Part shown: positions 3,477 through 22,541 of the stretch, in pieces | Layout: each line of letters begins with the position of its first letter | Position numbering within the stretch: the first letter of the stretch is position 1 | Source: Nitrososphaerota archaeon | GTDB lineage: Archaea; Thermoproteota; Nitrososphaeria; Nitrososphaerales; Nitrosopumilaceae | DNA length: 64,000 bases | Direction: 5' to 3' | Assembly (NCBI GenBank): GCA_021323705.1 | Contig: JAJPKL010000017.1 | Span: 1-64,000, forward strand | Position numbers and translations under genes: made by a program | Notes under the pieces: generated by a model | Told to the model about the DNA's origin: nothing | Seen by the model: only the letters and a program-made list of their open reading frames with translations | Databases searched by the model: none

Positions 3477-4394
3477 TTATTTTTTAAGTAACATTCTAGT
3501 TGTAATAAATCCTAAAACAGTAGGATACCACGTTCCAACAAGTCTAATTATGATAATGAGCGATGATACAAGCGATAATTCTATGCCTGACCGACTAAGA
3601 AACCCTACCAAACTTATCTCTGTGATTCCTATTCCTGCTGGTAGGAAAGAGACCGCGCCAAATAAAACAGATGAATATGTGATTATAGTTGTGAAAATTA
3701 TATTGAATTTCATGTTAAACGCAATAAATATAACATAAATTGTAAACATGTCAACAGCCCAAGCAAGTACACTTAGCAACCAGCTTTTTATCATGATTTT
3801 TTTAGTTGTTAACGAATAAAAAACTTCATACGATTCACTTATGTCATCAATAAATCTGTGCATCTTTGGAACTTTCAGTAATAATGTAGTGATTGATTTG
3901 AATAATTTTCTCACCCTTATTGCAAGATAAGATATTATCAAAAAGAAACCAATAATGCCGATTAATATTGTAACTTCGCGGAAATTTTGAAAAAATAGAA
4001 AAAATCCTATTATTGTGACTGTTGCTAGCAAGTCGTGAAATCTTTCTAGAAAGGTAATTGGAAATGTCTTGCTTATGCTATGACCCTCCTTAATTTTTAA
4101 AAAGTATGATTTTATTACTTCTCCACTACTTCCTGGTGTAATAATCATGCTCAAACCAGAAAAATAGAGCAACATATTATTTTTTGATGATAGGTTTATA
4201 CCAATTTTTTTAAAAAGGATGTGCTGTCTGAAGCCCTTTATGATCATCGCTGATGTAGAAAGTAAAAAGATAACCGGCAGAAATTCAAATTTGAAATGCG
4301 TTATACTTGAATAAAATTTGCCAAAATCTGAATATCCTACAAATACTACATAGAAAATCATTGTTGACAGAATAAAAATAGTTACCTTTTTCAA
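3477..4394 (-). CDS. Flippase-like membrane protein (LPG synthase TM / UPF0104 family)
   Basis: A 305-residue protein with about eight hydrophobic helices. The segment 'LYFSGLSMIITPGSSGEVIKSYFLK' (shown in part: GSSGEVIKSYFL) and the C-terminal 'SFLPAGIGITEISLVGFL' are hallmarks of the lysylphosphatidylglycerol-synthase transmembrane / UPF0104 family, which includes archaeal AglD-type and flippase-like proteins. Archaeal members act with lipid-linked glycans at the membrane. The gene lies directly after a GT2-like gene, a common pairing for dolichol-phosphate-sugar synthesis and flipping. Start TTG at 4394. Exact substrate cannot be read from sequence. Confidence 0.75.
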   Translation of the reverse strand: MKKVTIFILSTMIFYVVFVGYSDFGKFYSSITHFKFEFLPVIFLLSTSAMIIKGFRQHILFKKIGINLSSKNNMLLYFSGLSMIITPGSSGEVIKSYFLKIKEGHSISKTFPITFLERFHDLLATVTIIGFFLFFQNFREVTILIGIIGFFLIISYLAIRVRKLFKSITTLLLKVPKMHRFIDDISESYEVFYSLTTKKIMIKSWLLSVLAWAVDMFTIYVIFIAFNMKFNIIFTTIITYSSVLFGAVSFLPAGIGITEISLVGFLSRSGIELSLVSSLIIIIRLVGTWYPTVLGFITTRMLLKK

Positions 4395-4508: not shown

Positions 4509-5225
4509 TCATCTTTCTTTTAGTAAAGAGATTCTTTTTTGCATGATTTTTTTGAACATCGAAGTGGAAAATGAACCTATTTTTATTTTTGAATCTTTTC
4601 TTATATCATTGAAATTAGTAGGCATTTCGAAAAGTCTAAGAGATCTTTTTCTGGCATAAATTAGAATTTCTGTTTGGAGAAAAGGGCCATTATCCACTAA
4701 ACGATTTCTGAATTTTTTTATCTCATCTAATCTAAACGTTATAGCTGATTGCGTATCAGAAATTTTCAAATTGAATACCATGTTTACGAGGATATTGTAG
4801 CATTTTGAAAAAAACTTACGCTTAAGAGGTCTGTTATCTATAAAACCTTCCTGCCCTCTTGCAGATATTATAATATCATAACCCTCAAGAATTTTTTTAA
4901 TAGAGTTTCCTATAAAATCAAAACCAGTGGGGATTTCTATCCCATTAGAACATACAATAGGATATTTTGCATTATCAATTCCAGTTTTTATTGCGGCGCC
5001 TATTCCTAACTGATTTACTGAAATTAGTTTTACCTGACTCAAGCTGTTAGCTAATTCACTTACAATCTGAGGAGTTTTATCTTCACTTTTATCACAAATT
5101 AGAATTTCATATTCATTCAAAAAATCAAGAGATCTCAAATAGGAGACTGTCTCGAGTATATTACTACGTATAATTTTCTCTTCGTTGCGTGAAAGTAAGA
5201 TTAGGGACAGATTTGTTTTATTCAT
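4509..5225 (-). CDS. GT2-like (DPM1-type) glycosyltransferase, DXD region degenerate
   Basis: A 238-residue protein with the GT-A nucleotide-sugar fold of family 2: N-terminal 'LSLILLSRNEEKII', then 'EILICDKSEDKTPQI' and 'GIGAAIKTGIDNAKYPIVC'. This layout matches polyprenyl-phosphate mannosyl/glucosyl transferases. Where active family members have an Asp-Ala-Asp type metal site after the 'P-(I/V)-(V/L)' strand, this protein reads 'CSNGIEIP', so the usual metal-binding aspartates are absent. There is no membrane segment. It may be inactive, may use another metal ligand, or may be specialised. It sits between a methyltransferase and a flippase-like gene in the same operon. Start ATG at 5225. 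Confidence 0.72.
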   Translation of the reverse strand: MNKTNLSLILLSRNEEKIIRSNILETVSYLRSLDFLNEYEILICDKSEDKTPQIVSELANSLSQVKLISVNQLGIGAAIKTGIDNAKYPIVCSNGIEIPTGFDFIGNSIKKILEGYDIIISARGQEGFIDNRPLKRKFFSKCYNILVNMVFNLKISDTQSAITFRLDEIKKFRNRLVDNGPFLQTEILIYARKRSLRLFEMPTNFNDIRKDSKIKIGSFSTSMFKKIMQKRISLLKER

Positions 5226-5248: not shown

Positions 5249-5980
5249 TTATTTCTTTTTACAATTGACATAGATTGTGCTAGCTATATCGGGATATTCT
5301 TTTCCTAATTCAAATAGAGCGTCAAAATATCTTTGTTTCATTTTATTATTCTCCCATAAATTTGATCGATAAAGTTTTTGCATTTGATGGTTAGGATGCG
5401 CTTTTAGGAGGAACCCTCCAGAATGAATCACTTCAAAGCCCGTGGAATATACCATTTTCTTTAATTTATGCAAATCATACATTTGCATATGTCCTACTTC
5501 AAGATCATGTTTACTCAATTCCCGAGTATTTTTCAATAGATTCATTTTTTTTCCTAACATTCGGTTTAGGGAATTTGCATTAGGCACATGTATTATCAAG
5601 ACTCCATTATCTGAAAGCCATTTTGAAATTGTGGTTAGAATTTTTTTTGGATTACTAATATGTTCAAGAACGCTTATCATTATTATGGTATCAAACTTTT
5701 GAATAGGATAATAATTTTCAATTTTGTTAACAGTAAAGTTTCCTGTAGGAATTAATTTTCGTGCTTTATGAATCAAATTTTGATTTTCATCAATACCGTA
5801 TACTTTCTCAAACTTATCTACAAGATTGCTACAAAGGGTACCATCGCCGCATCCTATATCTAGCAATGTTTTCCCTTTACAGAATTCTCTTAAAATAAGT
5901 GTCTGATACTTCCCCAAGATGTCTTCAAATGGTGCTTTGGCTCTTCTCCATTTCTCCCAGTTTACTTTACTTGAAGACAT
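5249..5980 (-). CDS. Class I SAM-dependent methyltransferase
   Basis: A 243-residue Rossmann-fold methyltransferase of the Methyltransf_11/UbiE-like type. Motif I 'LLDIGCGDGTL' lies at about residues 40-50, an acidic residue ends strand 2 in 'VYGIDENQN', and motif post-I to IV is 'FDTIIMISVLEHISNP'. This family moves a methyl group from S-adenosylmethionine; within a glycan operon it may methylate a sugar or the acyl moiety handled by the ACP genes. It is cotranscribed with the LbH acyltransferase upstream and GT2-like gene downstream (gaps of about 36 and 23 bases). The substrate is not shown by the sequence. Confidence 0.8.
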   Translation of the reverse strand: MSSSKVNWEKWRRAKAPFEDILGKYQTLILREFCKGKTLLDIGCGDGTLCSNLVDKFEKVYGIDENQNLIHKARKLIPTGNFTVNKIENYYPIQKFDTIIMISVLEHISNPKKILTTISKWLSDNGVLIIHVPNANSLNRMLGKKMNLLKNTRELSKHDLEVGHMQMYDLHKLKKMVYSTGFEVIHSGGFLLKAHPNHQMQKLYRSNLWENNKMKQRYFDALFELGKEYPDIASTIYVNCKKK

Positions 5981-6016: not shown

Positions 6017-6721
6017 TCAAGTCGCAGATTTTATTACCCTAGCTGGATTTCCCATTGCAAGAACATTATCTGGAATACTTCTCATCACAACTGACCCTGC
6101 ACCTATTATAGAATTGTAACCTATCTCTACTCCTTGTAATATTATACAGTTGGCACCAAGACGAGCTTTATCCTTAATTTTTATGGGAGTTTTCATGTAT
6201 GAGTGACCTGCTCTGCCAAAGGAATTATCAGCAGATGTAGATATGTTCGGACCAATAAAGACATCTTGTCCTATTTCAGTAAATTCTGCTATCTGTGAAT
6301 TAATGGAAACTCGCGAATGATTTCCTATTCTTACAGCATTCATTATCAAGGCATTTGTTCCAATTATATTCTCATTGCCAAGGATGGTATTTTCTCTTAT
6401 CCACACTAAATCAGATAAGAATGAATCTATGCCAATATTTACACCTGCATATATCACCGAATTATTTCCAATGAAAACGTTGTTACCTATTACAGTTTCA
6501 TTTACATTTTTTGTTTTGTTAACCGATTTTTTTCTTGTTTCAGGCTTTATTCCTATTATAGAATTATTAAGAATTTTAACTCCATTCCCAATTTTAACGT
6601 CAGGATAGATTATTACATTATTACCTAATCTTACATTATCACCAATTGAAACATTTTCCATTATGATAACATTTTTTCCTTTATCAAATCCTTTGCCTAT
6701 TTTCTTCATATGTTTTTTCAT
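6017..6721 (-). CDS. Left-handed beta-helix acyltransferase (hexapeptide repeat)
   Basis: A 234-residue protein made almost entirely of hexapeptide repeats ([IV]-G-x-x-x-x), for example 'IGDNVRLGNNVIIYPDVKIG', ending with 'IGAGSVVMRSIPDNVLAMGNPARVI', the classical end of sugar O-/N-acyltransferases of the WbpD/WlbB, NeuD and maltose-acetyltransferase superfamily. These are trimeric enzymes that transfer acetyl or other acyl groups from acyl-CoA or acyl-ACP. Because it directly follows the LuxC/LuxE/ACP genes and is in the same locus as a DegT aminotransferase, an attractive inference is that it acylates the amino sugar with the unusual acyl group. Donor and acceptor are unproven. Start ATG at 6721. 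Confidence 0.8.
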   Translation of the reverse strand: MKKHMKKIGKGFDKGKNVIIMENVSIGDNVRLGNNVIIYPDVKIGNGVKILNNSIIGIKPETRKKSVNKTKNVNETVIGNNVFIGNNSVIYAGVNIGIDSFLSDLVWIRENTILGNENIIGTNALIMNAVRIGNHSRVSINSQIAEFTEIGQDVFIGPNISTSADNSFGRAGHSYMKTPIKIKDKARLGANCIILQGVEIGYNSIIGAGSVVMRSIPDNVLAMGNPARVIKSAT

Positions 6722-6731
6722 ATAATTTCAT

Positions 6732-8015
6732 TCATTTGTAGGTAGTGACCCATCTAACCATTCTCTCCATTCCAAACATGCCATCCCATGGAGAATCGAA
6801 TAAACTCATTGAACCTACATTTGGACACCTATCCCCTCCAAGCAAGGTCAAATTATCAATAATCTTCAATCTTTTGTCTTTTTTCATTACGATACCGATT
6901 GTTTGAATTTTACGCGAATTGTTTTCGTTACTTAGTTTATAATAATCTAGGCGGCGAACATGAATTACTCTAGAAAAGACAGGTTTAGCCAAGGAAGTTT
7001 CCACAGACGAAATTACTGTCCATTCTACTCCCTTTGATGAGTAGACGTTGTTTGTCAAGGCAGACTCTGCCCTCAAAGAAATAATTTCTGCCGATTTTTC
7101 TTCATTTATTGTTTGTTTTGGCAGTAGTATTCTATTTACATCATCTAATGCTTTGGCTAATTGTCGTGCAAAATTATCAATGATTTCGTTATTTGTGGAA
7201 TCAATTAATATTGTATGTGGAGAAGAACAAGCATATTGATCAAACATACTTACATCTATAGCAATTTTTTGAACAATTTGACTAAGATTGTCCTTTAACG
7301 AAATCTCATCTATAATTACATAAGAATACTTCGGTCCATATACGATATCCTCCGTAAACGGTGACTTTGGTAAAGAAATTATCGAGTTAACAGCTTCCCA
7401 ACCACCCCATGCAACTCTCACATCGGCGACTTTTGATAAAACGGTCTGATTTTCCACGTCATTTCGGTTAAGGTAGATCGCTTGTATGCATTGTAACATA
7501 TCTTTCCCTTTAATTACATTCGTATCCACTCTTGAAAAGCTGTCAAGTAGATCTATTAACAGATCATGTTTCGCAGGAACCTTAATTATGGATACATTCT
7601 TTGTGATTAAAGCTTGAATGGCTGAAAAGATTCCAAGCAAGTCTACATTTCCTGCAATCCAATGCGAGATTACCCCTCTTGGTTGTGCATGAAATAAAAG
7701 CTCATTGTCACCTAGATCTACAAAAGAATCAAGGGCATGTCGGTTGCCGTGTAGTGCTACATCTAACTTGTTTTCCATATATCTTTGTGAAAGAAATAAT
7801 GAAACGTATCTTGAATTTACGCCTATTTTATACTTGAATTCGGACGCCCAAAATTTCCCTAAATTATCAAAGTATTCAATTATATCGTCAACATTTTTTG
7901 AATGCAGCCAATTTCTTGATTGGTGGATTTTTTTTATATGCTCCTCAATCAGATTTGTTTCTATATCTGTCTTTTTACCATTGAAGATTAATATCTTAGC
8001 CAATAGTATCTCCAC
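6732..8015 (-). CDS. luxC-like: LuxC-like acyl-CoA/acyl-protein reductase
   Basis: A 427-residue aldehyde-dehydrogenase-fold protein of the acyl-CoA reductase (LuxC) family. The catalytic cysteine context 'FDQYACSSPHTI' (Cys263) matches the LuxC active site, and 'QPRGVISHWIAGNVDLLGIFS' near residues 111-131 fits the nucleotide-binding part. LuxC reduces an acyl thioester with NADPH to an aldehyde, normally taking the acyl group from the LuxE cysteine. Its reading frame overlaps the end of the LuxE-like gene by 20 bases, so the two are translationally coupled, as expected for a complex. The aldehyde is probably an intermediate for a surface-glycan substituent, since no luciferase genes are present. 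GTG start at 8015. Confidence 0.85.
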   Translation of the reverse strand: MEILLAKILIFNGKKTDIETNLIEEHIKKIHQSRNWLHSKNVDDIIEYFDNLGKFWASEFKYKIGVNSRYVSLFLSQRYMENKLDVALHGNRHALDSFVDLGDNELLFHAQPRGVISHWIAGNVDLLGIFSAIQALITKNVSIIKVPAKHDLLIDLLDSFSRVDTNVIKGKDMLQCIQAIYLNRNDVENQTVLSKVADVRVAWGGWEAVNSIISLPKSPFTEDIVYGPKYSYVIIDEISLKDNLSQIVQKIAIDVSMFDQYACSSPHTILIDSTNNEIIDNFARQLAKALDDVNRILLPKQTINEEKSAEIISLRAESALTNNVYSSKGVEWTVISSVETSLAKPVFSRVIHVRRLDYYKLSNENNSRKIQTIGIVMKKDKRLKIIDNLTLLGGDRCPNVGSMSLFDSPWDGMFGMERMVRWVTTYK

Positions 8016-9090
8016 ATCCTTTTACTTCTGCCTTTTCAGATCGCTTATCGAATTGGAAGTATTTTCCTTTCCGGCCACAAGGGCAATCGTCAATTCCCAC
8101 AATATGCCCCAGATCATCCGAAAGTATTGATATTCCAGGATAACTTCTAGGGAGGGGGCTGATAAGCTGGATAAAACCACTCTTGCCAATACCTTCATTT
8201 TCTAGCGTCACAGTATTTCGTATTAGTATTTCTGAGTAAAGAGGAACGTGTTTATTTCCATATTCACATTCCGGATAAACGGTTCCCAATTGTTCAGTCA
8301 TACCATAGATATCGATTATCCGGTTATTTGTTGTATGAAAAAAGTCACAGATGTTTTGATACAATTTATCTTTAGACATGTTGATGTCCCTTAATTTTTT
8401 CCACCCTCCGATATGAATAACATATGGATCTTTAAGATCTGTTAGTAAAGTCTTGACTTCTCTATTATCCATGTTTTGTTCAATGACATTATGAATTAGC
8501 CAAGTAAATCCAAAAATACAATAAGTCTTGCCAAAATCTATATTTTTAATTTTAGAGGGATCTAACTGTAGATTTTTGTTTAAAATGAAATTTATTGACT
8601 TCATGAAGGGTATGAAGCCTCTAATAGCTGATACACGAGATTTGATATCATTACCGCCGATAGATGCGTCATCAGAATCCATAACAATGAAATCTTTCTT
8701 TTCATGAATGAAGCTAGAAACAATGGCAATTAATGCTTTGGTTTGTCTCAATGATGTTATTCGATCTAATGAAATTATACTTGGAGAGTCTCCTGTTGTT
8801 GCACTTGAATAAACAGTTTTAAAAATATCCTTCTCATCTACTGACTTTAAGTGAAATTTCTTGAATAAGGATACCGGAAGGTATGGAATTTCCTCTAGGA
8901 GGTAATCAGACTGAGGCGAAAATGCCTTGTTGTCACATAATTTTCTGAATTCGACAGAATTTTTATAATGAAAGTTAATCGCTTCTCTAATGGATGACAA
9001 AAAGAGATTTTTTTTTTCTTCAGTTGTTAAAGAATATGGTTTCATATCTAACAGCTTTTCAACTAATTGATTGTTCATTATTTCACTCAT
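7996..9090 (-). CDS. luxE-like: LuxE-like acyl-protein synthetase
   Basis: A 364-residue member of the LuxE / PaaK-like branch of the adenylate-forming superfamily. The phosphate-binding loop is 'SSATTGDSPS' (residues about 95-104), the A5-like motif is 'DIYGMTEQLG', and the C-terminal region has the family's 'DDCPCGRKGKYFQFDKRSEKAE'-type stretch (read in part as CPCGRKGKYF). LuxE activates a carboxylate with ATP and holds it as a thioester for LuxC. Length matches the family (about 360-370). It overlaps LuxC by 20 bases and follows the acyl ligase with an 8-base gap. Two adenylating enzymes side by side suggest that one loads the ACP and the other loads the reductase. Confidence 0.85.
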   Translation of the reverse strand: MSEIMNNQLVEKLLDMKPYSLTTEEKKNLFLSSIREAINFHYKNSVEFRKLCDNKAFSPQSDYLLEEIPYLPVSLFKKFHLKSVDEKDIFKTVYSSATTGDSPSIISLDRITSLRQTKALIAIVSSFIHEKKDFIVMDSDDASIGGNDIKSRVSAIRGFIPFMKSINFILNKNLQLDPSKIKNIDFGKTYCIFGFTWLIHNVIEQNMDNREVKTLLTDLKDPYVIHIGGWKKLRDINMSKDKLYQNICDFFHTTNNRIIDIYGMTEQLGTVYPECEYGNKHVPLYSEILIRNTVTLENEGIGKSGFIQLISPLPRSYPGISILSDDLGHIVGIDDCPCGRKGKYFQFDKRSEKAEVKGCGDTIG

Positions 9091-9097
9091 TCCGGCA

Positions 9098-10540
9098 TCA
9101 ACGCAAAAGGAATCTTTGCACCTTTCCGTATTCGGTTTTGGGTAAATTTTTTACAAATTCAATTTTTGTTGGCACTTTATATCTTTCGAGATTTTTTATG
9201 CAATAATTCATTATAGTTAAAGAATCAAGTTTTGGGTCATCAGTTATGACAAACATCTTGACAATCTTTCCAAATAGTTCGTCGTCAACCCCTACAGCAA
9301 CTGCATCAACAATACCAGATATGCTTTTAACAATCTTCTCTATCTCGTCTGGCATTACTTTTTCTCCACCTACGTTAATCAGATTATCTTTTCTGCCCAA
9401 TAAATACAAGTACCCTTCCTCGTCAAAACGACCAACATCACCTGTTTTTAGCCACCCTTCTTCAAATTTGTCTTTATCTCTTATATTATTCCAGTATCTT
9501 TCAATCACATTTTTTCCTCGTATACATATTTCCCCTTCTTTGGCTTCTTTGCCATCATCGCCAACAACTTTAATCTCCACTCCAGGTGCAGGAATTCCAA
9601 CAGAATTTTCTTTTCCAGATTTACCATTAAATATCATAAATGTTGATCTTGAAGCCTCAGTTAATCCATAATATGTTGCAAATTTGGTTAACGGAAATAG
9701 TCTAAGAATTTCTTTTACTGTTTGTTCATTCACTGCGGTGCTATTTGTAATAATAAGACGCAATCTCTTACAGTTTTCTACAAAATCATTTCTAAAATTT
9801 TTTAATAATTTAGCTAATGTAGGAGGTACAGCTGCCAGAGTACTTGCATTATATTCATTAATTGATTTTAACAGATCCAGTGGATTTATGGTGTTTTTAT
9901 GAAGAATAATTGTCGATCCGCTATACAGAGATGTATGAAGGCATCCTAACCCAAATGAGTGAGATAATGAGAGAGGTACGATATGAACGTCATCTGAAAC
10001 ACACTCCAAAACTTTAACAATATTTTCGGTTGTAAAGAGAATATTCGAATGTTTAATTAGGGAACCCTTCGGTATGGTGGTTGTTCCTGAAGTATAAATT
10101 AATGCTGCATATTCTGAAGATATTGAATTTTCCTGATCATTTTGAGTTGATTTTTCCATGAACTCTTTAAATTCATTTAATTCAACATTTTTTGAATCCA
10201 AGGTCTTTGTTTTAGACATGATATCTCTTGATGTTATAATGGTCTGAGGTTTTGCGGATTCAATCTGATTATTCAAATTTAATTCGGAAATATTTGGAGA
10301 AATTACATGTGCAATATGACCCGCTCTAATGACACCTAAATACGATATTACAAACTCGACTGAATTATCAAAAAATATGGAAACAACTGAATTTTGTCGA
10401 TACCTTTTCAGAGATGATGAAAATTGTACTACTGAATTATAGATAGTTTCATAATCATATTTGCCATCTTTTGTAATTACCGCTATTTTGTTTGGATTTT
10501 TCTCTTTAGAGACGGTCAAGTAATCTACAATCGTATTCAT
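9098..10540 (-). CDS. AMP-dependent acyl-CoA/acyl-ACP synthetase (ANL superfamily)
   Basis: A 480-residue adenylate-forming ligase. Core motifs are all visible: 'YTSGTTTIPKGS' (A3, residues about 149-160), 'YYGLTEASR' (A5), 'KTGDVGRFDEEGYLYLLGRKD' (A7/A8, given in part) and the C-terminal catalytic lysine context 'PKTEYGKVQR' (A10). It should activate a carboxylic acid as acyl-AMP and pass it to CoA or a phosphopantetheine arm. The ATG overlaps the end of the ACP gene by 4 bases, which strongly suggests that the carrier protein is its partner. The acid is unknown. The short length compared with fatty-acyl-CoA synthetases is usual for stand-alone adenylation enzymes. Confidence 0.88.
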   Translation of the reverse strand: MNTIVDYLTVSKEKNPNKIAVITKDGKYDYETIYNSVVQFSSSLKRYRQNSVVSIFFDNSVEFVISYLGVIRAGHIAHVISPNISELNLNNQIESAKPQTIITSRDIMSKTKTLDSKNVELNEFKEFMEKSTQNDQENSISSEYAALIYTSGTTTIPKGSLIKHSNILFTTENIVKVLECVSDDVHIVPLSLSHSFGLGCLHTSLYSGSTIILHKNTINPLDLLKSINEYNASTLAAVPPTLAKLLKNFRNDFVENCKRLRLIITNSTAVNEQTVKEILRLFPLTKFATYYGLTEASRSTFMIFNGKSGKENSVGIPAPGVEIKVVGDDGKEAKEGEICIRGKNVIERYWNNIRDKDKFEEGWLKTGDVGRFDEEGYLYLLGRKDNLINVGGEKVMPDEIEKIVKSISGIVDAVAVGVDDELFGKIVKMFVITDDPKLDSLTIMNYCIKNLERYKVPTKIEFVKNLPKTEYGKVQRFLLR

Positions 10541-10788
10541 ATACGAGATTTAACTATCTTTAAAAGATCTTCTGCAGTTTTTATTGATAATGCATCTTCT
10601 GGAGTTGTCATAATGTTGAATTTTGATTCCACTGCAGTAACTAATTGTAATTGAGCAAATGAATCCCAGTTAGCATAGTGTTCTTGAGGCTTTTTCCAAT
10701 CAAAGGAAGACTCCGTCATATCTGGAAAAATAGTAAGAAATATCTTTTTTAACTCATCTTCTACGCTAGATGTTTTTTCCAACATCAA
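10537..10788 (-). CDS. Acyl carrier protein
   Basis: A small acidic-helical protein (82-83 residues) with the phosphopantetheine attachment site 'NWDSFAQLQLV' (Ser43, the D-S-(L/F) motif), preceded by helix I and followed by a loop and 'TAEDLLKIV' helix. This is the PP-binding domain of a discrete ACP. The first codon in the longest frame is TTG at 10788, directly followed by an ATG at 10785, which is the likelier start. It is the first gene of the minus-strand operon with the acyl ligase, LuxE and LuxC, and faces acpS across 37 bases. Discrete ACPs are uncommon in archaea, which lack a classical type II fatty-acid synthase. Confidence 0.88.
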   Translation of the reverse strand: MMLEKTSSVEDELKKIFLTIFPDMTESSFDWKKPQEHYANWDSFAQLQLVTAVESKFNIMTTPEDALSIKTAEDLLKIVKSRI

Positions 10789-10825
10789 ATCGTAGCGTTT
10801 TTCAATATAATTAAATCTTTAGAAA

Positions 10826-11188
10826 ATGAATGTACATATGATGGGAAAATTTGGAATTGGAATCGATATTGTGAAAATCAATCGTTTTAGAAAAATGCCT
10901 TATCCAAAGAATAAGAAGTTTTATAATAAAATTTTTCTTTTAAAGGAAATCCAGTATTGCTTAAAGTATAGAGATTCCGCTGTGCATTTTGCAGGTAAAT
11001 TTGCTTTAAAGGAAGCTACAAAAAAATCCATAAACAAACATTTAGATCTGTTAGAAATTGAGACCTCTCATTCTAATTCGGCCCCCATAGTACGATTATT
11101 GAATAATAATAACTATACATTTATGGCTTCTTTAAGTCATGAGGATATCTATGCGATAGCTGTAGTAATTTCAGCGGAAAGTAACTAA
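10826..11188 (+). CDS. acpS: Holo-[acyl-carrier-protein] synthase (4'-phosphopantetheinyl transferase)
   Basis: A 120-residue AcpS-type transferase. The N-terminal motif 'GIGIDIVKINRF' contains the metal-binding aspartate (Asp14), and 'FAGKFALKEATKKS' contains the second motif with Glu63. These correspond to the two Mg2+ ligands of bacterial AcpS, and the length matches. It transfers 4'-phosphopantetheine from CoA to the ACP serine. The gene is divergent from the ACP gene with only 37 bases between, and ends 2 bases before the convergent Gfo/Idh gene. ATGs at 10838 and 10841 are alternative starts better spaced from the AT-rich stretch at about 10803-10816. Dedicated activation of the neighbouring ACP is the simplest reading. 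Confidence 0.85.
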   Translation: MNVHMMGKFGIGIDIVKINRFRKMPYPKNKKFYNKIFLLKEIQYCLKYRDSAVHFAGKFALKEATKKSINKHLDLLEIETSHSNSAPIVRLLNNNNYTFMASLSHEDIYAIAVVISAESN

Positions 11189-11190
11189 TT

Positions 11191-12141
11191 TTAATTTTTA
11201 TTGTTATTTTGAGTCAAAAACAAATGTGATTCCTCAATAATTCCAACAATCCTGCGTGCTACTTCTCCATTTGGAATAGGAGAGGTAATGTGTCTCTTAT
11301 TTTGGCTAACGTCAAGAAAGAAATTCAATTCATCTCTAATTGTATTATTAGGTGTGATAATTACATCTTCTAAAACCCCAGAATGGTTGTTAATAAGTTG
11401 AATTTTTTGCAATACACAGTCAACAAGTGCTGTTTTTTCGGAACCTACAATAATCATTTTTCTATTCCTAATAGGATTCAACCAACTTAATTCGATATTG
11501 ACAAAAACGTCTTTTCCGCCAAATGAATCTACTAAATGATAATTTATGATCGCAAATTCTACATTTTTTTGTCTGAATCCTTCTCCTGTACAAATTATGT
11601 CTTTTGGCATTCGTTCAAAAATATTATCTAATATGTCTATGGGATGAACACCAAGGTCGAAGAGAATATCTCTATCAGGAAATATTGGTTCCAAATTTGT
11701 CCAAGATATATTGACAGTATAAATTCTTCCAAGATTTTTGTTATGGATCAATTCTTTGATCTTTTTTATTGCGTTGTTAAATCTGAAAATATGTCCTACT
11801 ATTAGTACTAAATTTTTTTCATTAGCTAGTTTTACTATTTCGTCTGCATCTTTTAGATTAGTTGCAAGAGGTTTTTCTAGCAATATGTTTTTTCCAGCAT
11901 TTAATGATTCCAGAGCTATTTTATGATGTGTGGAATTAGGTGTACAAATACTGATTGTTTTAATTTCATTGTCATTTAAAATGTCATGATAATCTTTTAC
12001 TGGTTTTGCGTTATAGTTTAATTTACAGAATTGAAGATTTTCATCAGACAAATCTGAGACTGCCACATCATGACCTAATTGAAAGTATTCGTCAACGTGT
12101 TTTTTACCCCAATAACCCACTCCTATTACACCGACTTTCAT
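11191..12141 (-). CDS. Gfo/Idh/MocA-family NAD(P)-dependent sugar oxidoreductase
   Basis: A 316-residue protein with the N-terminal Rossmann motif 'VGVIGVGYWGKKH' and the family's catalytic lysine context 'LLEKPLATNLKDAD', followed by 'LIVGHIFRFNNAI'. This family oxidises or reduces sugar hydroxyl groups. Together with the adjacent DegT aminotransferase and the LbH acyltransferase it resembles the WbpB-WbpE-WbpD (WlbA-WlbC-WlbB) route, where C3 of a UDP-HexNAcA is oxidised, aminated and acylated. The DegT stop and this ATG are directly adjacent (12142/12141), indicating coupling. The actual sugar is inferred, not shown. Confidence 0.85.
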   Translation of the reverse strand: MKVGVIGVGYWGKKHVDEYFQLGHDVAVSDLSDENLQFCKLNYNAKPVKDYHDILNDNEIKTISICTPNSTHHKIALESLNAGKNILLEKPLATNLKDADEIVKLANEKNLVLIVGHIFRFNNAIKKIKELIHNKNLGRIYTVNISWTNLEPIFPDRDILFDLGVHPIDILDNIFERMPKDIICTGEGFRQKNVEFAIINYHLVDSFGGKDVFVNIELSWLNPIRNRKMIIVGSEKTALVDCVLQKIQLINNHSGVLEDVIITPNNTIRDELNFFLDVSQNKRHITSPIPNGEVARRIVGIIEESHLFLTQNNNKN

Positions 12142-13194
12142 CTAAATGGCCTCCATTATTTTTTCGGATATTAACGCAACTTCCTCATCCTTAAGTAAAG
12201 GATATGACGGAAGAGATAAAATCTCCTTAACAAATTTTTCAGCGTTTGGGAGAACAAATCCATACTTGGAATAAAGAGGTTGCTTGTGTATGGGAATTGG
12301 ATAATGTATCGCAGTGCCTATTTTGTTATCAGATAGATGTTTCATAATTTTATCTCTATTCTTGTGTTTAATCACTATCTGATGATAGACTGCTTTGCCT
12401 TTTGGATTTTCTCCAAGAAAAAGTTCTTTACCTAACTTTTGTTGATAGATTCTAAGAATTTCTTTCCTTCTTTTATTAAATTCGTCTAAATGTTTAAGCT
12501 GAACTCTTCCTATCGCTGCACTAACAGTGTTTAATCGCATAGTAAAACCTAGTTTATCATGCTCTACTTTGGATTTCCTACCATTATCTCTCAATGACCT
12601 TATCGTATTTGCAACATCTTCATTATTGGTCGTAACCATACCGCCATCACCAGCTACAGTCATGTTTTTTGTTGAATAAAACGAAAAACAGCCCACATCT
12701 CCCAGACTTCCCGCTTTTTTGTCATCATAAATTGCACCGTGTGCTTGGCAGGCATCTTCTATAATAGGTATATTGTATCTTTGACTATATTCTATTACAG
12801 ATTCGTAATCACATGGATTTCCATATATGTGCACAGGTATTACGGCGTCTACCCCATATTCACACTTGCTAAGGTCAATATTTCCATCTTCTAAATTTAT
12901 ATCACATAATTCTGGTCTAGCCCCAACCATTAAGATACAATTTGCAGATGCTATAAATGAATTAGTACTGGTCAAGACTTTTGAGCCATTCTTTATTCCC
13001 AAGGCAAGCAAAGATAGATGAAGCGCGCTATTTCCCGAACTCACTGAAACGGCATATTTTGTTCCAATGTATCTTGCGAACTCTTCTTCAAATTTGAATA
13101 CACTTTCTCCCATGATAAAATTCTCATTGTAGAGAGCTTGTAACGCAACCTCTTCCATCTCTTTTGTAAATTTGATATCAAAAAATGGTATCAC
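12142..13194 (-). CDS. DegT/DnrJ/EryC1/StrS PLP-dependent sugar aminotransferase
   Basis: A 350-residue fold-type I aminotransferase. 'SSGNSALHLSLLALG' near residues 55-69 forms the PLP phosphate site, 'IEDACQAHGAIYDDKKAGSLG' carries the PLP-ring aspartate, and 'FSFYSTKNMTVAGDGGMVTT' has the Schiff-base lysine (in STKN). This family puts an amino group on a keto-sugar nucleotide. The gene is in a tight trio with a sugar nucleotidyltransferase upstream and a Gfo/Idh dehydrogenase downstream, so the product is likely an amino sugar for the surface glycan. An aldehyde from the LuxC protein is an alternative, more speculative amine acceptor. GTG start. Confidence 0.88.
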   Translation of the reverse strand: MIPFFDIKFTKEMEEVALQALYNENFIMGESVFKFEEEFARYIGTKYAVSVSSGNSALHLSLLALGIKNGSKVLTSTNSFIASANCILMVGARPELCDINLEDGNIDLSKCEYGVDAVIPVHIYGNPCDYESVIEYSQRYNIPIIEDACQAHGAIYDDKKAGSLGDVGCFSFYSTKNMTVAGDGGMVTTNNEDVANTIRSLRDNGRKSKVEHDKLGFTMRLNTVSAAIGRVQLKHLDEFNKRRKEILRIYQQKLGKELFLGENPKGKAVYHQIVIKHKNRDKIMKHLSDNKIGTAIHYPIPIHKQPLYSKYGFVLPNAEKFVKEILSLPSYPLLKDEEVALISEKIMEAI

Positions 13195-13252: not shown

Positions 13253-13963
13253 TTAATCATAAAGCCAAAATAAAGAGCCAATTTCATTTTGAAGTTTTTC
13301 GAAATCCTTTGGTATGCCTATGTCTATATAATAACCACTAAATAGGTATCCTAAAAAGGGCTTTTCGATTTTAAAACAGGCAAAAACGTCTCGTTCTAAT
13401 GAGAAATGATTTGGAAGGGATAGCCAATCGATAGAGTCCTTTTTAATCAAATATGCTCCTGCGTTAACATATACTTCTTTAGAGGTAATTCCCTTTTCAA
13501 CAAAGGAGGTTATGTTATTATTAGAATCTAATATAATTACTCCAAACCTTTCAGGATTTACAACTTTTGTTACTGCAAGAGAAATATTAGAATTATTTTT
13601 CTTATGAAATTCTACAAAATCAGTATATTGGACTTCCATTAAAACATCTCCATTTACAACCAGAAATTCTTTTTCTAATAGATCATATGCGTTTTTTAGT
13701 GCACCGCCAGTGCCCAGTGGTTCGCTTTCCAACGAATAGTTAATTCTTACATCAAATTTAGTACCATCTTGAAAATAGTCTTTTATCATATCATGTTTAT
13801 AACCAGAACAAATTAGAAGATCTCTAAACCCTTGTTTATGCAGATATATTATCAAGTGTTCCAGAAATGGCTTGCCGTTTACAATAGCCATCGATTTTGG
13901 CCTATCTGATACAACTTGACGTAGTCTCGTTCCCAAACCACCAGCCAAAATTACTATCTGCAT
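13253..13963 (-). CDS. Sugar-1-phosphate nucleotidyltransferase (HddC/RmlA-like)
   Basis: A 236-residue NTP-transferase with the signature 'ILAGGLGTRLRQVVSDRPKSM' at the N-terminus and 'FLVVNGDVLMEV' holding the metal-binding aspartate. The protein is the short form without a beta-helix tail, similar in length to D-glycero-D-manno-heptose-1-phosphate guanylyltransferases and mannose-1-phosphate guanylyltransferases. It makes the NDP-sugar that enters the glycan pathway. It is the first gene of the three-gene minus-strand unit ending at 11191. The nucleotide and sugar cannot be fixed from sequence. Confidence 0.82.
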   Translation of the reverse strand: MQIVILAGGLGTRLRQVVSDRPKSMAIVNGKPFLEHLIIYLHKQGFRDLLICSGYKHDMIKDYFQDGTKFDVRINYSLESEPLGTGGALKNAYDLLEKEFLVVNGDVLMEVQYTDFVEFHKKNNSNISLAVTKVVNPERFGVIILDSNNNITSFVEKGITSKEVYVNAGAYLIKKDSIDWLSLPNHFSLERDVFACFKIEKPFLGYLFSGYYIDIGIPKDFEKLQNEIGSLFWLYD

Positions 13964-14172: not shown

Positions 14173-17100
14173 TTATTTTATGTGTGCTGTTGCATTTACA
14201 TGAATAGCTGTGTTTAGCGGATATCCACTAGGCAATGTTCTATCAGAGTAGGTAGCAGTCACATCATCCCCTGAACCTACATGCAATATACCACTACTTG
14301 CGGAGTTGCCCTGTGTAAACTTTACTGAGCCACTAAATACTCCAGTTGATGGTCCCGTTTCTACCACATCAACGTAAGTACCTATAGGATCTGAGGTGGA
14401 CCGGACTTGAATCAAATGGGTGTAAATATCCACAAGATTTCGATTTTGATCCAAGTCTTTGTCAATTAATGTTATAATTCCATTTCCACCTACTCGATAC
14501 TTTGATGAATCCCACATAAGCAGTCCTATGTTCCACTTTATGGGTACAGCTCTCTGAATTTCTTGATTACCATGTAAGAATGATACGGTAATTACATCAT
14601 TACCATCATCTTGAATGCTTCCAGTAGGACCACTTCCGTTGGTAAGGCTTGGTAAGGGTGTACTTGTATCAGTTACAGAGTAATTGAATCCTGTTAGGTC
14701 CATCCTGCCTGTAAATATTCCTGTATCTACTCCTGTTTCAACAAGTTTGAAATTATGAAGTGTGTGCTGTGCTGTAGATATTGTAACAGAACTACTGTTG
14801 GTGTTTCCTATCACATCAATTAGATTTGGATCAGTGTTCATCTCAGGTGCTATAACAGTAATGTATACACGGTCTTTCCAAGAATACTGATTTTTATCAA
14901 GTTCAATCCTATCTATGGTTTGATGCTGAATAGGCTGATGATAAGTAACACTAGTTATTGACGCAGTTTTCAGTGAATCCATATCATCAGTTATTTTAGT
15001 TAGGATTTGTGATTTCAGTGGTGGAACAACGATTGTATTGTTTGCATAATTTCGTACAACCTGTAACATTTGTTGGGTATCATACAGATCATCGGACTTT
15101 ACAAAGTTGTCCGCTGCGGTCAGATAAGTTTGTAATTGTGCAATATCACTTGTAGAATTTTTAAAGAATGCAGGAGGCATTGAATTTATGCTTGCCTCTA
15201 TTGAATGAATTCTTTCAGATCGGATCTCCCTTACTTCATGCATTGTTATCTCTTTTGCCAGAGTATACCTCTGATTGTGGATTAGTGTCCATCCCCACTG
15301 CTCATACCAAGAAACCAACCTTGCTCTCAATTCTCCCGTATATGTAATTGTCTGGTTTGGATAGTCAAAACTCATTGTGGAGTTTGCAATCTTTGCAAAT
15401 TGCGGTGCAATTGGAGTTTTGATCAATGTCATATTGTCAAGATTGAATGACGATGTAGTTGCGTTATAAAATCCTGAGTTTGGATTGTATTTTTGGAATC
15501 CAGTAGAGCTTGAAGTCGGTGGTAACTGAATGATACCCATGCTTCCGCCGGAAGGTGTTGAACTTACAGGAGGGTCAAGATTTACAGAACTCAATACATG
15601 TATGCCATCAGACCAGCTAGAGTAGGACTTTGAGTTTAGCATTAGATTATCCCAATCATCAAAGTCTGACAATGAATTTGATACAACTTCACTACCGTCA
15701 CAAAATGCAGAGTGAATGTTATTGATGTCTGTACTTCCCACCATCGACGAATCTATTATGCCATTTCCATTGGCATCAATAGGTGCTTGCCCTTCTGGAA
15801 ATAGACTGATATCTGACGGTGACAGCACATAATTCCTTATTTGAACATCATCTATCAAGCCGTTAAGTGAGTATGCACCATTGTCTCCTCTTGCTCCAAT
15901 CTTCAGAGTGGCCGATGATGGCCATGATGTGTATGTGGAAGCAAAGTGTGTCGTACTGTCTAGAGTACCATTAATGTATATGCTTAGCGTACCTGCATTA
16001 TCAAACGTAGCCACCACGTGAGTCCAGTCACCTATTTTTGCAATCACCGTATTACTAGCAACGCCTTGAGCAGTTAACCCCTCAACTACGTATGCATAGA
16101 TCCTGTTATCAGAACCAAGTCTTAGGGCATATCCCCCACCTGCAGATGTCCAATCATATTTTTCTATGATGCCTTGTTGTTGGTTTAGTACGCTTGGATT
16201 AATCCATGCGCTCAGAGTCCAAGGACCAGTAAGGTTGGTAGAGGTCGAACTCGGAATAGTGAGATAATAACCATTGAGATTTGCTGAATAGCTACCAATT
16301 TTACCTGTTGAGAACACAGCTGTTGCCGAACCACCGGATGATGAGGTTGGTGTTACAGAATTTGCATTACCACTAGAATCTGCTAGATTATTTTCTAACT
16401 GCAACCATAATGTGTTACTAGACGACATTTGATCATTCATAATATATTGAATATCAAAAGCAGGCAACGCATAATTCCTTATTTGAACATCATCTATCAA
16501 GCCGTTAAGTGAGTATGCACCATTGTCTCCTCTTGCTCCAATCTTCAGAGTGGCAGATGATGGCCATGATGTGTAGGAGACAGATACGGTACTGTCCAGA
16601 ATACCGTTAATGTATATGCTTAGCGTACCTGCATTATCAAACGTAGCAACAACATGATACCATTTGCCCTGTTGAAGTACTGTGTTACTGGCAATGCCTT
16701 GCACTTTTGTTCCTTCAACTACATAGGCATGGATCCTGTTGTCAGCGCCAACCCTGAGTGCATATCCCCCACCTGCAGATGTCCAGTCGTATTTTTCTAT
16801 GATGCCTTGTTGTTGGTTTATGACACTCAGATTAATCCATGCGCTCAGAGTCCAAGGACCAGTAAGGTTAGTTGCGTCAGAATTTGGTGCAGTGAGATAA
16901 TCTGTACCGTCAAGCTTGAGCGAGTAGGTTCCAACTTGGCCTCCTACATAACTTAGAGCTTTTGTTGCGCCAGTAAATACTGGAGAAACAGTGACGCCGT
17001 TTCCACTAGAGTCTGCCAGATTATTTTCTAATTGTAACCATAAAGTTTGATATGCAGAGTTACCAGCCCACGTAGTCTTGTATATCAACCCACTATTTAC

Positions 17101-18603
17101 TCCATAAACAGTTTGCAGATTTGGCGGTCCGCTAATGCCAACACCGCTGCTCTCAGTAATGCCATTTTCATTTAGAGTTCCAAGTATTGAGGTGTGCGAG
17201 TAGTCAAGCGGCCTGTTTATTGGAAATAGTTCCTTGAATTGTCTTGAATAGCTCATAACACTGAGATAGTTTGGCTTGCAGTTGTCTGGTACGTTGCCCC
17301 CATGATCTAAACCAAGATTGTGGCCAAGTTCATGCATAAACGTCCCTTCTTGCTGGTCAGTAGTTCCTATGTCTCCGGTAAAGCTGCCAAGCGAGATAAT
17401 CAAGTCGTTTCCCGGTTGTTCGGCCTCACCTGAAGATCCTTCACCGCCTGTCTGTGAATGAATAAACAACGCATAATGGAATACTTGCTTCTTTGATGTC
17501 AGGTTCTCTTGATATGTCCATGTAGAAGGTACGTTTTTCAAATCTGCTGGAAGTGCAAAATGTGCCTGTTTTATGAGATCAAAATCAGTTGGGTTAGTTG
17601 CCCCTGAACCGCCAGGAATTGGGGTTGAAATGGTGTCCTTGTGTATTGAAATCTGGTTACCCAGTATTATGTGAAGATGTATTCCGCTCTTGCATGTGCT
17701 ACAAGCTTTGAATGGAGAGTGCACAAATGAATCAACCACATCTATCAAGGCGTTTGTATCAGGCTTGTGACCCACCATCCAGTCAACTTGGACATAAACA
17801 TCAGCTATTGCTTTATCAGGACATACTAAATCGCCTAGTGCGTCATACCATTGATTAGATCCGCTTGGCGAGGTATAAGCTAGGGTTGAGTCATAGGAAG
17901 CATTTGGATCACATGGTAAGTAGTAGTATCCATTTGGGATGGAACCAGTCGAGTCTGCTACAAGATATGGGATCTGAAGTCCCGGATTGGACTGTCCTGC
18001 AGGGATCTTCCAGTTGTCACAAACGCCGTCATTTGCCTGATTATTGCCATAATTAGAACAATCCGCTATCACCTTACCCCACAAAGGTTGTGGCGATATT
18101 GGGGTGGGCGGCCATGTGCCATATTCAGTATTGATTACAGATGCAGATGATGTTACAGTTGGCGTTGTTCCAGCAGGATATGTTGCAGTAATGGTTATGG
18201 GCGAACCTGCTGCCGGAGCTGTACTTCCGATATTTAACATCACGTTTGTGCTAGAATATAAAATTGTAAAATTAATGTACGGGCTTTGGTATATGTGATT
18301 TACAGGATCTACCAGCTGAAGGGGAAAGTCATAACCTGCAGTTCCAGGAACGCCAACATGCACCTTTACAGGGGAAGGTGGTGCGCTGGGATCGGTTACA
18401 GTAAGTACGAAGGAATGATCAAAAAAGTATGTCGCATTATCAAATGTTAGAGCTGTAGTTGTAGATCCATAAACATGGTGCGAGACTGGAAGGAAAAGAA
18501 CGAGACTGAAGAACAGTCCACAGACTAGAATGCAATTTTCATTTGATATCTTTGCAAATAAAAAATCAACCTTATGAAATGCTATGCCCTCCTTAACCCC
18601 CAC
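14173..18603 (-). CDS. Secreted metzincin-type metalloprotease with two LamG domains
   Basis: A 1476-residue exported protein. A hydrophobic signal segment lies at about residues 25-45. Around residues 424-436 is the zinc site 'HELGHNLGLDHGG' (HExxHxxGxxH), followed by 'LSVMSYSR', the Met-turn that defines metzincins. Two LamG (concanavalin-A-like) domains follow at about 540-730 and 750-950, each with 'GPWTLSAWINxSVxNQQQGIIEKYDW'-type sequence (paraphrased). The C-terminal 300 residues contain two copies of an 'ETG-x-x-TG-x-F-x-G' repeat also found in the protein at 19790. The metzincin plus LamG layout recalls pappalysin-type M43 peptidases. It likely acts outside the cell on proteins or glycoproteins. 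Start GTG at 18603; no obvious sorting signal at the C-terminus. Confidence 0.82.
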   Translation of the reverse strand: MGVKEGIAFHKVDFLFAKISNENCILVCGLFFSLVLFLPVSHHVYGSTTTALTFDNATYFFDHSFVLTVTDPSAPPSPVKVHVGVPGTAGYDFPLQLVDPVNHIYQSPYINFTILYSSTNVMLNIGSTAPAAGSPITITATYPAGTTPTVTSSASVINTEYGTWPPTPISPQPLWGKVIADCSNYGNNQANDGVCDNWKIPAGQSNPGLQIPYLVADSTGSIPNGYYYLPCDPNASYDSTLAYTSPSGSNQWYDALGDLVCPDKAIADVYVQVDWMVGHKPDTNALIDVVDSFVHSPFKACSTCKSGIHLHIILGNQISIHKDTISTPIPGGSGATNPTDFDLIKQAHFALPADLKNVPSTWTYQENLTSKKQVFHYALFIHSQTGGEGSSGEAEQPGNDLIISLGSFTGDIGTTDQQEGTFMHELGHNLGLDHGGNVPDNCKPNYLSVMSYSRQFKELFPINRPLDYSHTSILGTLNENGITESSGVGISGPPNLQTVYGVNSGLIYKTTWAGNSAYQTLWLQLENNLADSSGNGVTVSPVFTGATKALSYVGGQVGTYSLKLDGTDYLTAPNSDATNLTGPWTLSAWINLSVINQQQGIIEKYDWTSAGGGYALRVGADNRIHAYVVEGTKVQGIASNTVLQQGKWYHVVATFDNAGTLSIYINGILDSTVSVSYTSWPSSATLKIGARGDNGAYSLNGLIDDVQIRNYALPAFDIQYIMNDQMSSSNTLWLQLENNLADSSGNANSVTPTSSSGGSATAVFSTGKIGSYSANLNGYYLTIPSSTSTNLTGPWTLSAWINPSVLNQQQGIIEKYDWTSAGGGYALRLGSDNRIYAYVVEGLTAQGVASNTVIAKIGDWTHVVATFDNAGTLSIYINGTLDSTTHFASTYTSWPSSATLKIGARGDNGAYSLNGLIDDVQIRNYVLSPSDISLFPEGQAPIDANGNGIIDSSMVGSTDINNIHSAFCDGSEVVSNSLSDFDDWDNLMLNSKSYSSWSDGIHVLSSVNLDPPVSSTPSGGSMGIIQLPPTSSSTGFQKYNPNSGFYNATTSSFNLDNMTLIKTPIAPQFAKIANSTMSFDYPNQTITYTGELRARLVSWYEQWGWTLIHNQRYTLAKEITMHEVREIRSERIHSIEASINSMPPAFFKNSTSDIAQLQTYLTAADNFVKSDDLYDTQQMLQVVRNYANNTIVVPPLKSQILTKITDDMDSLKTASITSVTYHQPIQHQTIDRIELDKNQYSWKDRVYITVIAPEMNTDPNLIDVIGNTNSSSVTISTAQHTLHNFKLVETGVDTGIFTGRMDLTGFNYSVTDTSTPLPSLTNGSGPTGSIQDDGNDVITVSFLHGNQEIQRAVPIKWNIGLLMWDSSKYRVGGNGIITLIDKDLDQNRNLVDIYTHLIQVRSTSDPIGTYVDVVETGPSTGVFSGSVKFTQGNSASSGILHVGSGDDVTATYSDRTLPSGYPLNTAIHVNATAHIK
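15828..15933. repeat. 106-bp internal repeat, copy 1 (LamG coding)
   Basis: This stretch inside the second LamG domain matches 16470-16575 at all but one position by eye. The offset is 642 bases (214 codons), so the copy is in frame and reflects duplication of a whole LamG domain, with later homogenisation or a recent origin. Confidence 0.85.
16470..16575. repeat. 106-bp internal repeat, copy 2 (LamG coding)
   Basis: Partner of 15828-15933, inside the first LamG domain of the same gene. Only one difference was found (a C/A exchange in the GGC(C/A)GATGATGG stretch). Flanking parts of the two domains have diverged further. Confidence 0.85.
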
Positions 18604-21762: not shown

Positions 21763-22089
21763 ATGCCTTCAAGCTATAACCTGCCAGAAATAGTCAGAAA
21801 GGAGATAGATGAGCTGGTCAGATCAGGATACTATTCAAGCAAGTCCGATGTTGTCAAGGATGCACTCAGGTACATGTTTAGCAATAAAAAAAACCTAAGG
21901 CTTGCAGCTGCAGTAGGACTGTACAAAAAGGGCGAGGTCACTCTTGGCAAGGCGGCTGAGATTGCAGATGTTGGTATAATTGAATTCAAGGACAGACTAA
22001 AAGAGTACGGCATTAAGAGGATAATTGAATCAGAAAGCGCATCAAGGATGGACAGTGCGATTGAAAAGATGAAGGGCAGGCATGGATGA
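21763..22089 (+). CDS. RHH / UPF0175-type antitoxin
   Basis: A 108-residue protein. The N-terminal 45 residues ('YNLPEIVRKEIDELVRSGYYSSKSDVVKDALRYMF', shown in part) form a ribbon-helix-helix DNA-binding domain. Residues about 50-90 ('RLAAAVGLYKKGEVTLGKAAEIADVGIIEF', in part) match the UPF0175 family, which partners DUF3368 PIN toxins. The stop overlaps the start of the PIN gene in an ATGA, giving a coupled antitoxin-toxin operon. It should neutralise the PIN protein and repress the operon through the palindrome just upstream. Confidence 0.85.
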   Translation: MPSSYNLPEIVRKEIDELVRSGYYSSKSDVVKDALRYMFSNKKNLRLAAAVGLYKKGEVTLGKAAEIADVGIIEFKDRLKEYGIKRIIESESASRMDSAIEKMKGRHG

Positions 22090-22541
22090 AGGTTGTAGCG
22101 GATACAGACATACTGAGTATTTTTGCAAGAATTGGAAGGCTTGATATTTTAAATGAACTTTTCGAGACTGTTATTGTACCACCATCAGTAAAGGTCGAAC
22201 TTGCGAAAGGGAAGATAGATATTAAGAAGCTTTATCCCGAGTTTGTCCAACTAACAACTATTGAATTAAAGAACCTAAAGGACGCACATAGTGAGCTAGA
22301 CAAAGGAGAAAAGGAATGCTATGTTATAGCAAGGAGCAGAAACATTCCGCTTGTAAGTAATGAAAAGATCGTGCATAGGTTGTGCAAGGAAGACGGCACA
22401 AGTTATTTCTCGCTGCCGAGGATACTGAGACTTGCAATCACGGATGATTTAGTCACAAGAAATGAAGCAAGACAGCTTGTTAACAGTATAGAGAAAGAGG
22501 AACACACAATAATAAAGAACAAGGATGAGATATTCAGATAA
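22086..22541 (+). CDS. DUF3368 PIN-like toxin
   Basis: A 151-residue PIN-fold nuclease of the DUF3368 group. Acidic active-site positions are visible in 'VVADTDILSIFARIG' (Asp6/Asp8), 'LDKGEKECYVIAR' (Glu) and 'PLVSNEKIVHRLC' where many PIN proteins have an aspartate-rich loop. The family cleaves RNA as toxins of type II modules. It is the second gene of a coupled pair with the UPF0175/RHH antitoxin (4-base overlap). The pair seems intact, unlike several neighbouring modules. Confidence 0.82.
   Translation: MKVVADTDILSIFARIGRLDILNELFETVIVPPSVKVELAKGKIDIKKLYPEFVQLTTIELKNLKDAHSELDKGEKECYVIARSRNIPLVSNEKIVHRLCKEDGTSYFSLPRILRLAITDDLVTRNEARQLVNSIEKEEHTIIKNKDEIFR

Follow-up and report, generated by a model that had tools for sequence, protein, structure and literature searches.

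The window analysed here, the first 64,000 of the 79,929 bases of contig JAJPKL010000017.1 in a Nitrososphaeria assembly (1.84 Mb, 99.8% complete), contains an island of glycan genes that harbours a discrete acyl carrier protein (ACP), the holo-ACP synthase AcpS, an acid ligase of the ANL superfamily, and relatives of LuxE and LuxC. With about even confidence, we regard these five genes as a horizontally mobile, self-sufficient carrier cassette, in which LuxE and LuxC would reduce an acid and the ANL ligase, the ACP, and a left-handed beta-helix (LbH) acyltransferase would acylate a surface amino sugar. Its probable role is to put an unusual acyl group on sugars of the cell surface. A block of ACP, ANL, LuxE, and LuxC genes is widespread in bacteria and has already been described; the new part is a subtype that bears AcpS. 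A preliminary description of the region had proposed a carrier-based line of acid activation and reduction in an archaeal glycan island, without ties to a fatty acid synthase (FAS), and our analysis supports this. All five open reading frames (ORFs) are intact:

6732-8015, minus strand: LuxC-like acyl reductase (PF05893, E 1e-71), predicted catalytic Cys263
7996-9090, minus strand: LuxE-like acyl-protein synthetase (PF04443, E 8.5e-59), flexible C-terminal tail with acyl-transfer Cys359
9098-10540, minus strand: ANL-superfamily acid ligase, predicted ACP loader (PF00501, E 1.8e-62, with C-terminal domain PF13193)
10537-10788, minus strand: discrete ACP (PF00550, E 0.0047), phosphopantetheine site Ser43 (WDSF)
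10826-11188, plus strand: AcpS holo-ACP synthase, divergent from ACP (PF01648, E 2.9e-11)

Alignments agree that the genes are real and that their catalytic residues are those named earlier (ACP Ser43, AcpS Asp14 and Glu63, LuxC Cys263), and the reported overlaps measure 4 bp (ACP/ANL) and 20 bp (LuxE/LuxC). ACP, ANL, LuxE, and LuxC lie contiguously inside the glycan genes and are followed on the minus strand by LbH, methyltransferase, and glycosyltransferase genes. Because these genes share one strand and are separated by gaps of only -20 to +36 bases, the run from ACP to the glycosyltransferase looks like one operon. AcpS points away from it, 37 bases upstream of ACP, and Gfo/Idh, DegT, and nucleotidyltransferase genes stand further along on the minus strand.

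The PF00550 match of the ACP is just below the Pfam cut-off. This weak profile call is settled by the AlphaFold model (pLDDT 91.5), a four-helix bundle in which helix II has Ser43 at its start, by its listed PDB fold matches, 50 of 50 being ACPs or ACP-containing complexes, and by the W-D-S motif, in which W and S are invariant and D is found in 12 of 13 sequences (second alignment). No other ACP in the genome matches its model. AcpS scores 43.8 bits against a PF01648 cut-off of 25, is above the cut-off of TIGR00556 and just below that of TIGR00516, and carries Asp14 and Glu63 (metal-binding) and Lys67, all invariant in the alignment. Judged by its sequence, this enzyme, the only PF01648 match in the genome, could in principle arm the ACP. 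When the genome of this ammonia-oxidising host was searched for beta-ketoacyl-ACP synthase, the sole match was weak and partial (24.2 bits, 84 model positions); a link of the cassette to FAS was rejected, as no other ketosynthase was found.

The ANL protein keeps the motifs YTSGTT, YGLTE, and TGD and the A10 lysine in GKVQR, features of an acid-adenylating ligase; among enzymes of solved structure, oxalyl-CoA, succinylbenzoyl-CoA, and malonyl-CoA synthetases are nearest to it. LuxE matches PF04443 with 199.8 bits (cut-off 24.9). Its fold resembles PaaK and BT_0428 and lacks the usual ANL C-terminal domain, while the adenylation fold and motif are kept. Cys359 is conserved in all 17 homologues compared; it lies in a floppy tail (pLDDT ~28) and is the counterpart of Cys364, the C-terminal acyl acceptor of Photobacterium LuxE (PMC8301110). 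LuxC reaches 242.4 bits for PF05893 (cut-off 21) and retains Cys263. Both proteins miss the NCBIfam long-chain equivalog cut-offs by far, with 107.6 of 750 bits for LuxC and 98.5 of 550 bits for LuxE.

Six cassettes bear AcpS, namely those of the window, Woesebacteria (L039), Pacearchaeota (L040), Chloroflexi (L041), Nitrosopumilus (L042), and Nanoarchaeota (L043); their hosts are thus two Nitrososphaeria, two DPANN archaea, one member of the Candidate Phyla Radiation (CPR), and one of the Chloroflexi. L039 to L043 are the five best matches, and AcpS stands beside ACP in all of them, as in the window. A quick LuxE tree unites the six in one clade (SH-aLRT 100), and the LuxC tree does the same for five (SH-aLRT 99), L039 with its split LuxC having been left out. 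None of the six genomes has a PF01648 match other than the cassette AcpS, save for one fragment riddled with stops in that of the Nanoarchaeota, and one ACP was found in each. A real ketosynthase is absent from five of the six and present in the Nanoarchaeota genome. Since the hosts have no other AcpS, the cassette appears to bring its own, and the window belongs to the subtype through both its sole AcpS and its place in the LuxE clade. A linked AcpS is absent from most bacterial cassettes with normal FAS, the exceptions being Deinococcus L031 and Gastranaerophilales L116. An iron-type alcohol dehydrogenase (Fe-ADH) is encoded within or beside the ANL-LuxE-LuxC block of L039, L040, L041, and L043, and also in Asgard L081 and L090; none was found in the window cassette.

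A scan of GTDB genomes yielded at least 583 relatives of LuxE. In all 88 loci examined, LuxC was found no more than 5 kb from LuxE; ANL was found within this distance in 80 and ACP in 72, so the neighbourhood is not as exceptional as was first supposed: it is common in bacteria and already described from islands for flagellin glycosylation (PMC7874193, PMC4875605). Fusions of LuxE with LuxC occur in 14 bacterial loci, some of them next to ACP-ANL, and common neighbours are DegT, LbH, NeuB, transketolase halves, short-chain dehydrogenases/reductases (SDR), and sugar transferase genes. Some loci hold only parts of the block: L035 and L037 have LuxE-LuxC with no ACP or ANL detected nearby, and L044 and L051 have ACP-LuxE-LuxC without ANL, ACP directly adjoining LuxE. 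An SDR (3-oxoacyl-ACP reductase) was not found within 5 kb of the window LuxE. Fe-ADH and SDR set against each other gave 1/14 versus 30/74 loci (Fisher p 0.016), a comparison among related loci that are not independent, and their mutual exclusion is only suggestive. Gut-bacterial cassettes (L049, L060, L063, L086, L095, L115, and others) contain split transketolase genes, SDR, thioesterase, or an acetolactate-synthase-like thiamine pyrophosphate enzyme, plus NeuB; there, the LuxC aldehyde may be a substrate for carboligation. A DNA search of the E. coli genome gave no match. LuxE occurs in 2 of 250 genomes of the host's family, and a search of the phylum added one other real LuxE-LuxC pair, in genome G504, most other matches being weak ANL matches. 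In G504, a distant archaeon of the phylum, the pair (L037, 8105-10950) lies beside hydrogenase-type genes.

AcpS itself is less rare in the class than the preliminary description implied in calling a carrier with its own activating enzyme unusual: it was found in 47 of 400 Nitrososphaeria genomes, mostly in FkbH-type modules. In 34 AcpS loci that were read, FkbH accompanies AcpS in 21 and ACP is present in 20 of these, with MaoC where checked. This LbH-FkbH-ACP-MaoC-AcpS module, situated beside glycosyltransferase and nucleotidyltransferase genes, is widespread in Nitrososphaeria genomes (L152, L153, L155, L156, L159, L162, L165, L168-L174, L177, and L180-L183), and no published report of it was found; the presence of FkbH suggests a glyceryl-ACP-derived group on surface glycans. 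In a further genome of the class, AcpS-ACP is followed by a phosphate acetyl/butyryltransferase (PF01515; L157, 8175-9826), which is a different way of loading the carrier.

Three archaeal loci are closer to the window. L158 and L164 contain AcpS, ACP, ANL, and LbH, and L160 contains AcpS, ANL, and LbH, its ACP not having been called by the script; LuxE and LuxC are absent from all three loci, and searches of the genomes gave no LuxE match. Their ANL proteins are sister to that of the window (support 99) inside the clade of AcpS cassettes (99). Because of this nested position, LuxE and LuxC were probably lost from these loci, or parts were recombined. The nearest relatives of the window genes differ, being FkbH-type AcpS for AcpS (57% identity), L158, L160, and L164 for ANL and ACP (44-49%), and L042 for LuxE and LuxC (49-51%), and the cassette therefore seems to be a mosaic. 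In L175 (genome G097, of the same genus as the window) and L154 (G731), ANL, a carrier domain, and LbH repeats are fused in proteins of ~1,350 amino acids, and PF01648 matches are placed close to the fusion genes in both genomes.

The remaining genes of the island are:

3477-4394, minus strand: flippase-like membrane protein (TIGR00374, E 3.3e-31), marks the island's left end in comparison with sister genomes
4509-5225, minus strand: family-2-like glycosyltransferase (NCBIfam PgfS/DPhHxTase-like matches)
5249-5980, minus strand: methyltransferase dependent on S-adenosylmethionine (PF13489, E 7.8e-27)
6017-6721, minus strand: LbH N-acyltransferase, QdtC-like (3FS8), predicted acceptor of acyl-ACP
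11191-12141, minus strand: Gfo/Idh/MocA oxidoreductase (PF01408, E 6.1e-27)
12142-13194, minus strand: DegT/DnrJ/EryC1 sugar aminotransferase (PF01041, E 1e-105)
13253-13963, minus strand: sugar-phosphate nucleotidyltransferase (PF00483, E 1.8e-38)

By their sequences, DegT, LbH, and the methyltransferase form the set commonly used to build and N-acylate amino sugars. QdtC (3FS8) is the best solved relative of LbH (E 1.6e-19, residues 16-232), and the gene follows LuxC in L039, L040, and L031. QdtB (3FRK, E 6e-73) and WbpE are among the best solved relatives of DegT. L039 and L040 encode homologues of DegT (38%) and of Gfo/Idh/MocA, and the Woesebacteria cassette L039 one of the methyltransferase (33%). 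The UDP-GlcNAc3NAcA pathway (WbpB/WbpE/WbpD) was considered for Gfo, DegT, and LbH and set aside, because DegT and LbH lean to QdtB and QdtC and Gfo is not specific. As stated before, no luciferase-family gene (PF00296) was found in the island; the three in the genome are all on other contigs.

The first 14 kb of the window have a GC content of 30-34% versus 37-48% beyond. The PGI gene at the left edge is 57-70% identical in eleven same-genus genomes, and the right flank of the island shows ~70-81% identity at the DNA level. In sister genome G182, PGI and a homologue of 19790-21547 are only ~2.5 kb apart on one contig, with no trace of island genes between PGI and the next shared gene; in sister G044, a 36% homologue of the flippase-like gene lies beside PGI. 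As sister species keep both flanks without the island, contamination, which had been named as a threat to the archaeal origin of the cassette, was rejected, and these comparisons indicate that the island was acquired horizontally by a genuine Nitrososphaeria contig. Right of the island, a DDE transposase gene (PF01609, 18776-19681) is a possible trace of mobility. Other genes of this part of the window encode a putative surface protein of 1,476 amino acids with two Laminin_G_3 domains (14173-18603), which has a partial homologue (36%) at the matching place in G182, and a UPF0175 protein adjoining a 151-amino-acid ORF (21763-22541), possibly a toxin-antitoxin pair.

The gene neighbourhoods of bacterial cassettes offer clues to the acid. 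In Clostridium, ACP-ANL-LuxE-LuxC lies beside a 4-hydroxybutyryl-CoA dehydratase gene in seven of eight loci (in the eighth the contig ends first), six of these seven also having a 4-hydroxybutyrate CoA-transferase; the two enzymes match 1U8V (E 2e-243) and 3EH7 (E 8e-176), respectively. Within the stretch read, three loci further encode a Fe-ADH similar to Cvir-Hbd2 (E 4e-125). The same genes adjoin the Megasphaera cassette L071 (dehydratase 77%, transferase 64% identical), although this cassette is of a distant lineage (LuxE 39%, ANL 27%). The shared pathway genes beside two distant cassettes are an argument for LuxE and LuxC supplying a C4 semialdehyde there, and we infer that the acid is succinate. 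A carrier-linked route of succinate reduction to butyrate is possible at these loci. LuxE and LuxC are unmentioned in the text of the Clostridium flagellar paper. A sigma-54 regulator is also found beside the cassettes of Clostridium (L046, L050, L054, L056, L080, L094, and L118) and Megasphaera (L071).

In the order of steps that we favour, LuxE would activate a free short acid with ATP and pass the acyl group via Cys359 to Cys263 of LuxC, which would reduce it with NAD(P)H to the aldehyde. An alcohol dehydrogenase, the Fe-ADH in the cassettes of four relatives and presumably a host enzyme here, would give the hydroxy-acid, and ANL would load this on holo-ACP. Finally, before export, the QdtC-like LbH would use the acyl-ACP to acylate the amino group on the nucleotide sugar that DegT makes. 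A short acid is a likelier substrate than a fatty acid, with conversion of succinate to 4-hydroxybutyrate as the leading candidate. Alternatively, as first proposed, ANL could load the ACP before LuxE takes the acyl group from it or works on the carrier, and the LuxC aldehyde, or an amine or alcohol derivative, would join the glycan. This order is possible, if somewhat unlikely, and would explain why ACP, ANL, LuxE, and LuxC stay together in the Clostridium 4-hydroxybutyrate loci, where LbH was not seen, why ACP directly adjoins LuxE in L044 and L051, and why LuxE-LuxC fusions occur next to ACP-ANL. However, LuxE has its own adenylation fold and motif, so that two activators in series would spend ATP twice, LuxE-LuxC occurs with no ACP or ANL detected nearby in L035 and L037, and ACP-ANL-LbH exists without LuxE and LuxC. 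The Fe-ADH of the four relatives and the LuxE/LuxC-free loci fit better with reduction before loading. An improbable third possibility is a long-chain fatty-aldehyde or lipid route like that of the lux reductase, leading to a lipid-bearing glycan. Family membership of LuxE and LuxC and a liposugar proposed for Aeromonas (PMC7874193) speak for it, but the scores far below the long-chain cut-offs, a host without ketosynthase, the mostly small or dicarboxylic acids used by the nearest solved ligases, and the 4-hydroxybutyrate gene context in two bacterial lineages do not. It is very improbable that ACP, ANL, and LbH perform ordinary N-acylation while LuxE and LuxC are inert passengers of a recent transfer. 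Such passengers would be in line with the LuxE/LuxC-free loci of related archaea and the scarcity of LuxE in the family; yet both genes are intact, overlap within one operon, have all catalytic residues, and are kept in two Nitrososphaeria genera that are ~50% different in sequence.

Several observations weigh against reduction followed by carrier loading, the reading that we prefer. Neither the window cassette nor its closest relative L042 contains an alcohol dehydrogenase, and the Fe-ADHs of glycan cassettes are only ~30% identical to those of Clostridium. In many bacterial cassettes the place of Fe-ADH is taken by genes for SDR, transketolase, or thioesterase, and other products are possible. 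Clostridium cassettes keep ACP and ANL with no LbH seen nearby, and L044 and L051 lack ANL, so the ACP may serve the reduction itself. AcpS was undetected in the genome of Asgard L081 despite its cassette. Moreover, what the substrate and the glycan are, and in which order the steps run, we infer from sequence, which cannot reveal substrates. The carbon-fixation cycle of ammonia-oxidising archaea yields succinic semialdehyde and 4-hydroxybutyrate. A bolder scheme, which we consider rather doubtful, would have succinate converted via succinic semialdehyde to 4-hydroxybutyrate, linked to the carrier, and displayed as N-4-hydroxybutyryl on surface amino sugars; these archaea would have shed the cassette stepwise, losing Fe-ADH (window, L042) and then LuxE and LuxC (L158, L160, L164), and kept ANL-ACP-LbH to draw on the central pool.

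LuxE/LuxC pairs, for which no assigned role was found in the literature, are a common feature of non-luminous genomes; through two separate 4-hydroxybutyrate gene neighbourhoods, one large group of these pairs is now connected with short-acid metabolism. The AcpS-bearing subtype suggests that a carrier pathway can work in archaea and CPR without sign of ketosynthase-based FAS by bringing its own AcpS. For ammonia-oxidising archaea, about whose surface glycans very little is known, it also leads us to predict a cell-surface sugar that carries an acyl group.

Among described systems, the group II flagellin glycosylation islands of Aeromonas, in which orf1-5 encode ACP, 3-oxoacyl-ACP reductase, AMP ligase, LuxE, and LuxC (PMC7874193), and enterobacterial islands with the same kinds of genes (PMC4875605) share with the window the ACP, AMP ligase, LuxE, and LuxC block within glycan genes, function being unproven in both. 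The window differs in lacking the 3-oxoacyl-ACP reductase, in having its own AcpS, and in its archaeal host without FAS. A 102-Da residue of Aeromonas, by our own arithmetic a C4H6O3 acyl, was dismissed as a lead, as the paper has nothing tying it to the cassette. A plasmid-borne exopolysaccharide cluster of Deinococcus (L031, NZ_CP026517) has the same order ACP-ANL-LuxE-LuxC-LbH, with an AcpS-like ORF after LbH, but adds an SDR, and its LuxE (36% identical) belongs to another clade. The viosamine island of Pseudomonas syringae (VioA, VioB, VioS, VioR, ACP, and VioM), which yields an N-(3-hydroxybutyryl)-2-O-methyl amino sugar (PMC3927599), resembles the window in its DegT aminotransferase, LbH acyltransferase, ACP, and methyltransferase. 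There, however, the acyl group comes from KAS III and a ketoacyl reductase, families without a match among the island proteins scanned, and ANL, LuxE, and LuxC are not listed. The fatty acid reductase of luminous bacteria (LuxC, LuxD, and LuxE) has in common with the window the LuxE adenylation fold with a C-terminal acyl cysteine and the catalytic cysteine of LuxC, whereas the island has no LuxD or luciferase, adds ACP, ANL, and AcpS, and scores far below the long-chain equivalogs. The FkbH-type modules (L168, L152, and others) likewise combine AcpS (50-57% identical) and ACP beside LbH in glycan islands, but have FkbH and MaoC where the window has ANL, LuxE, and LuxC.

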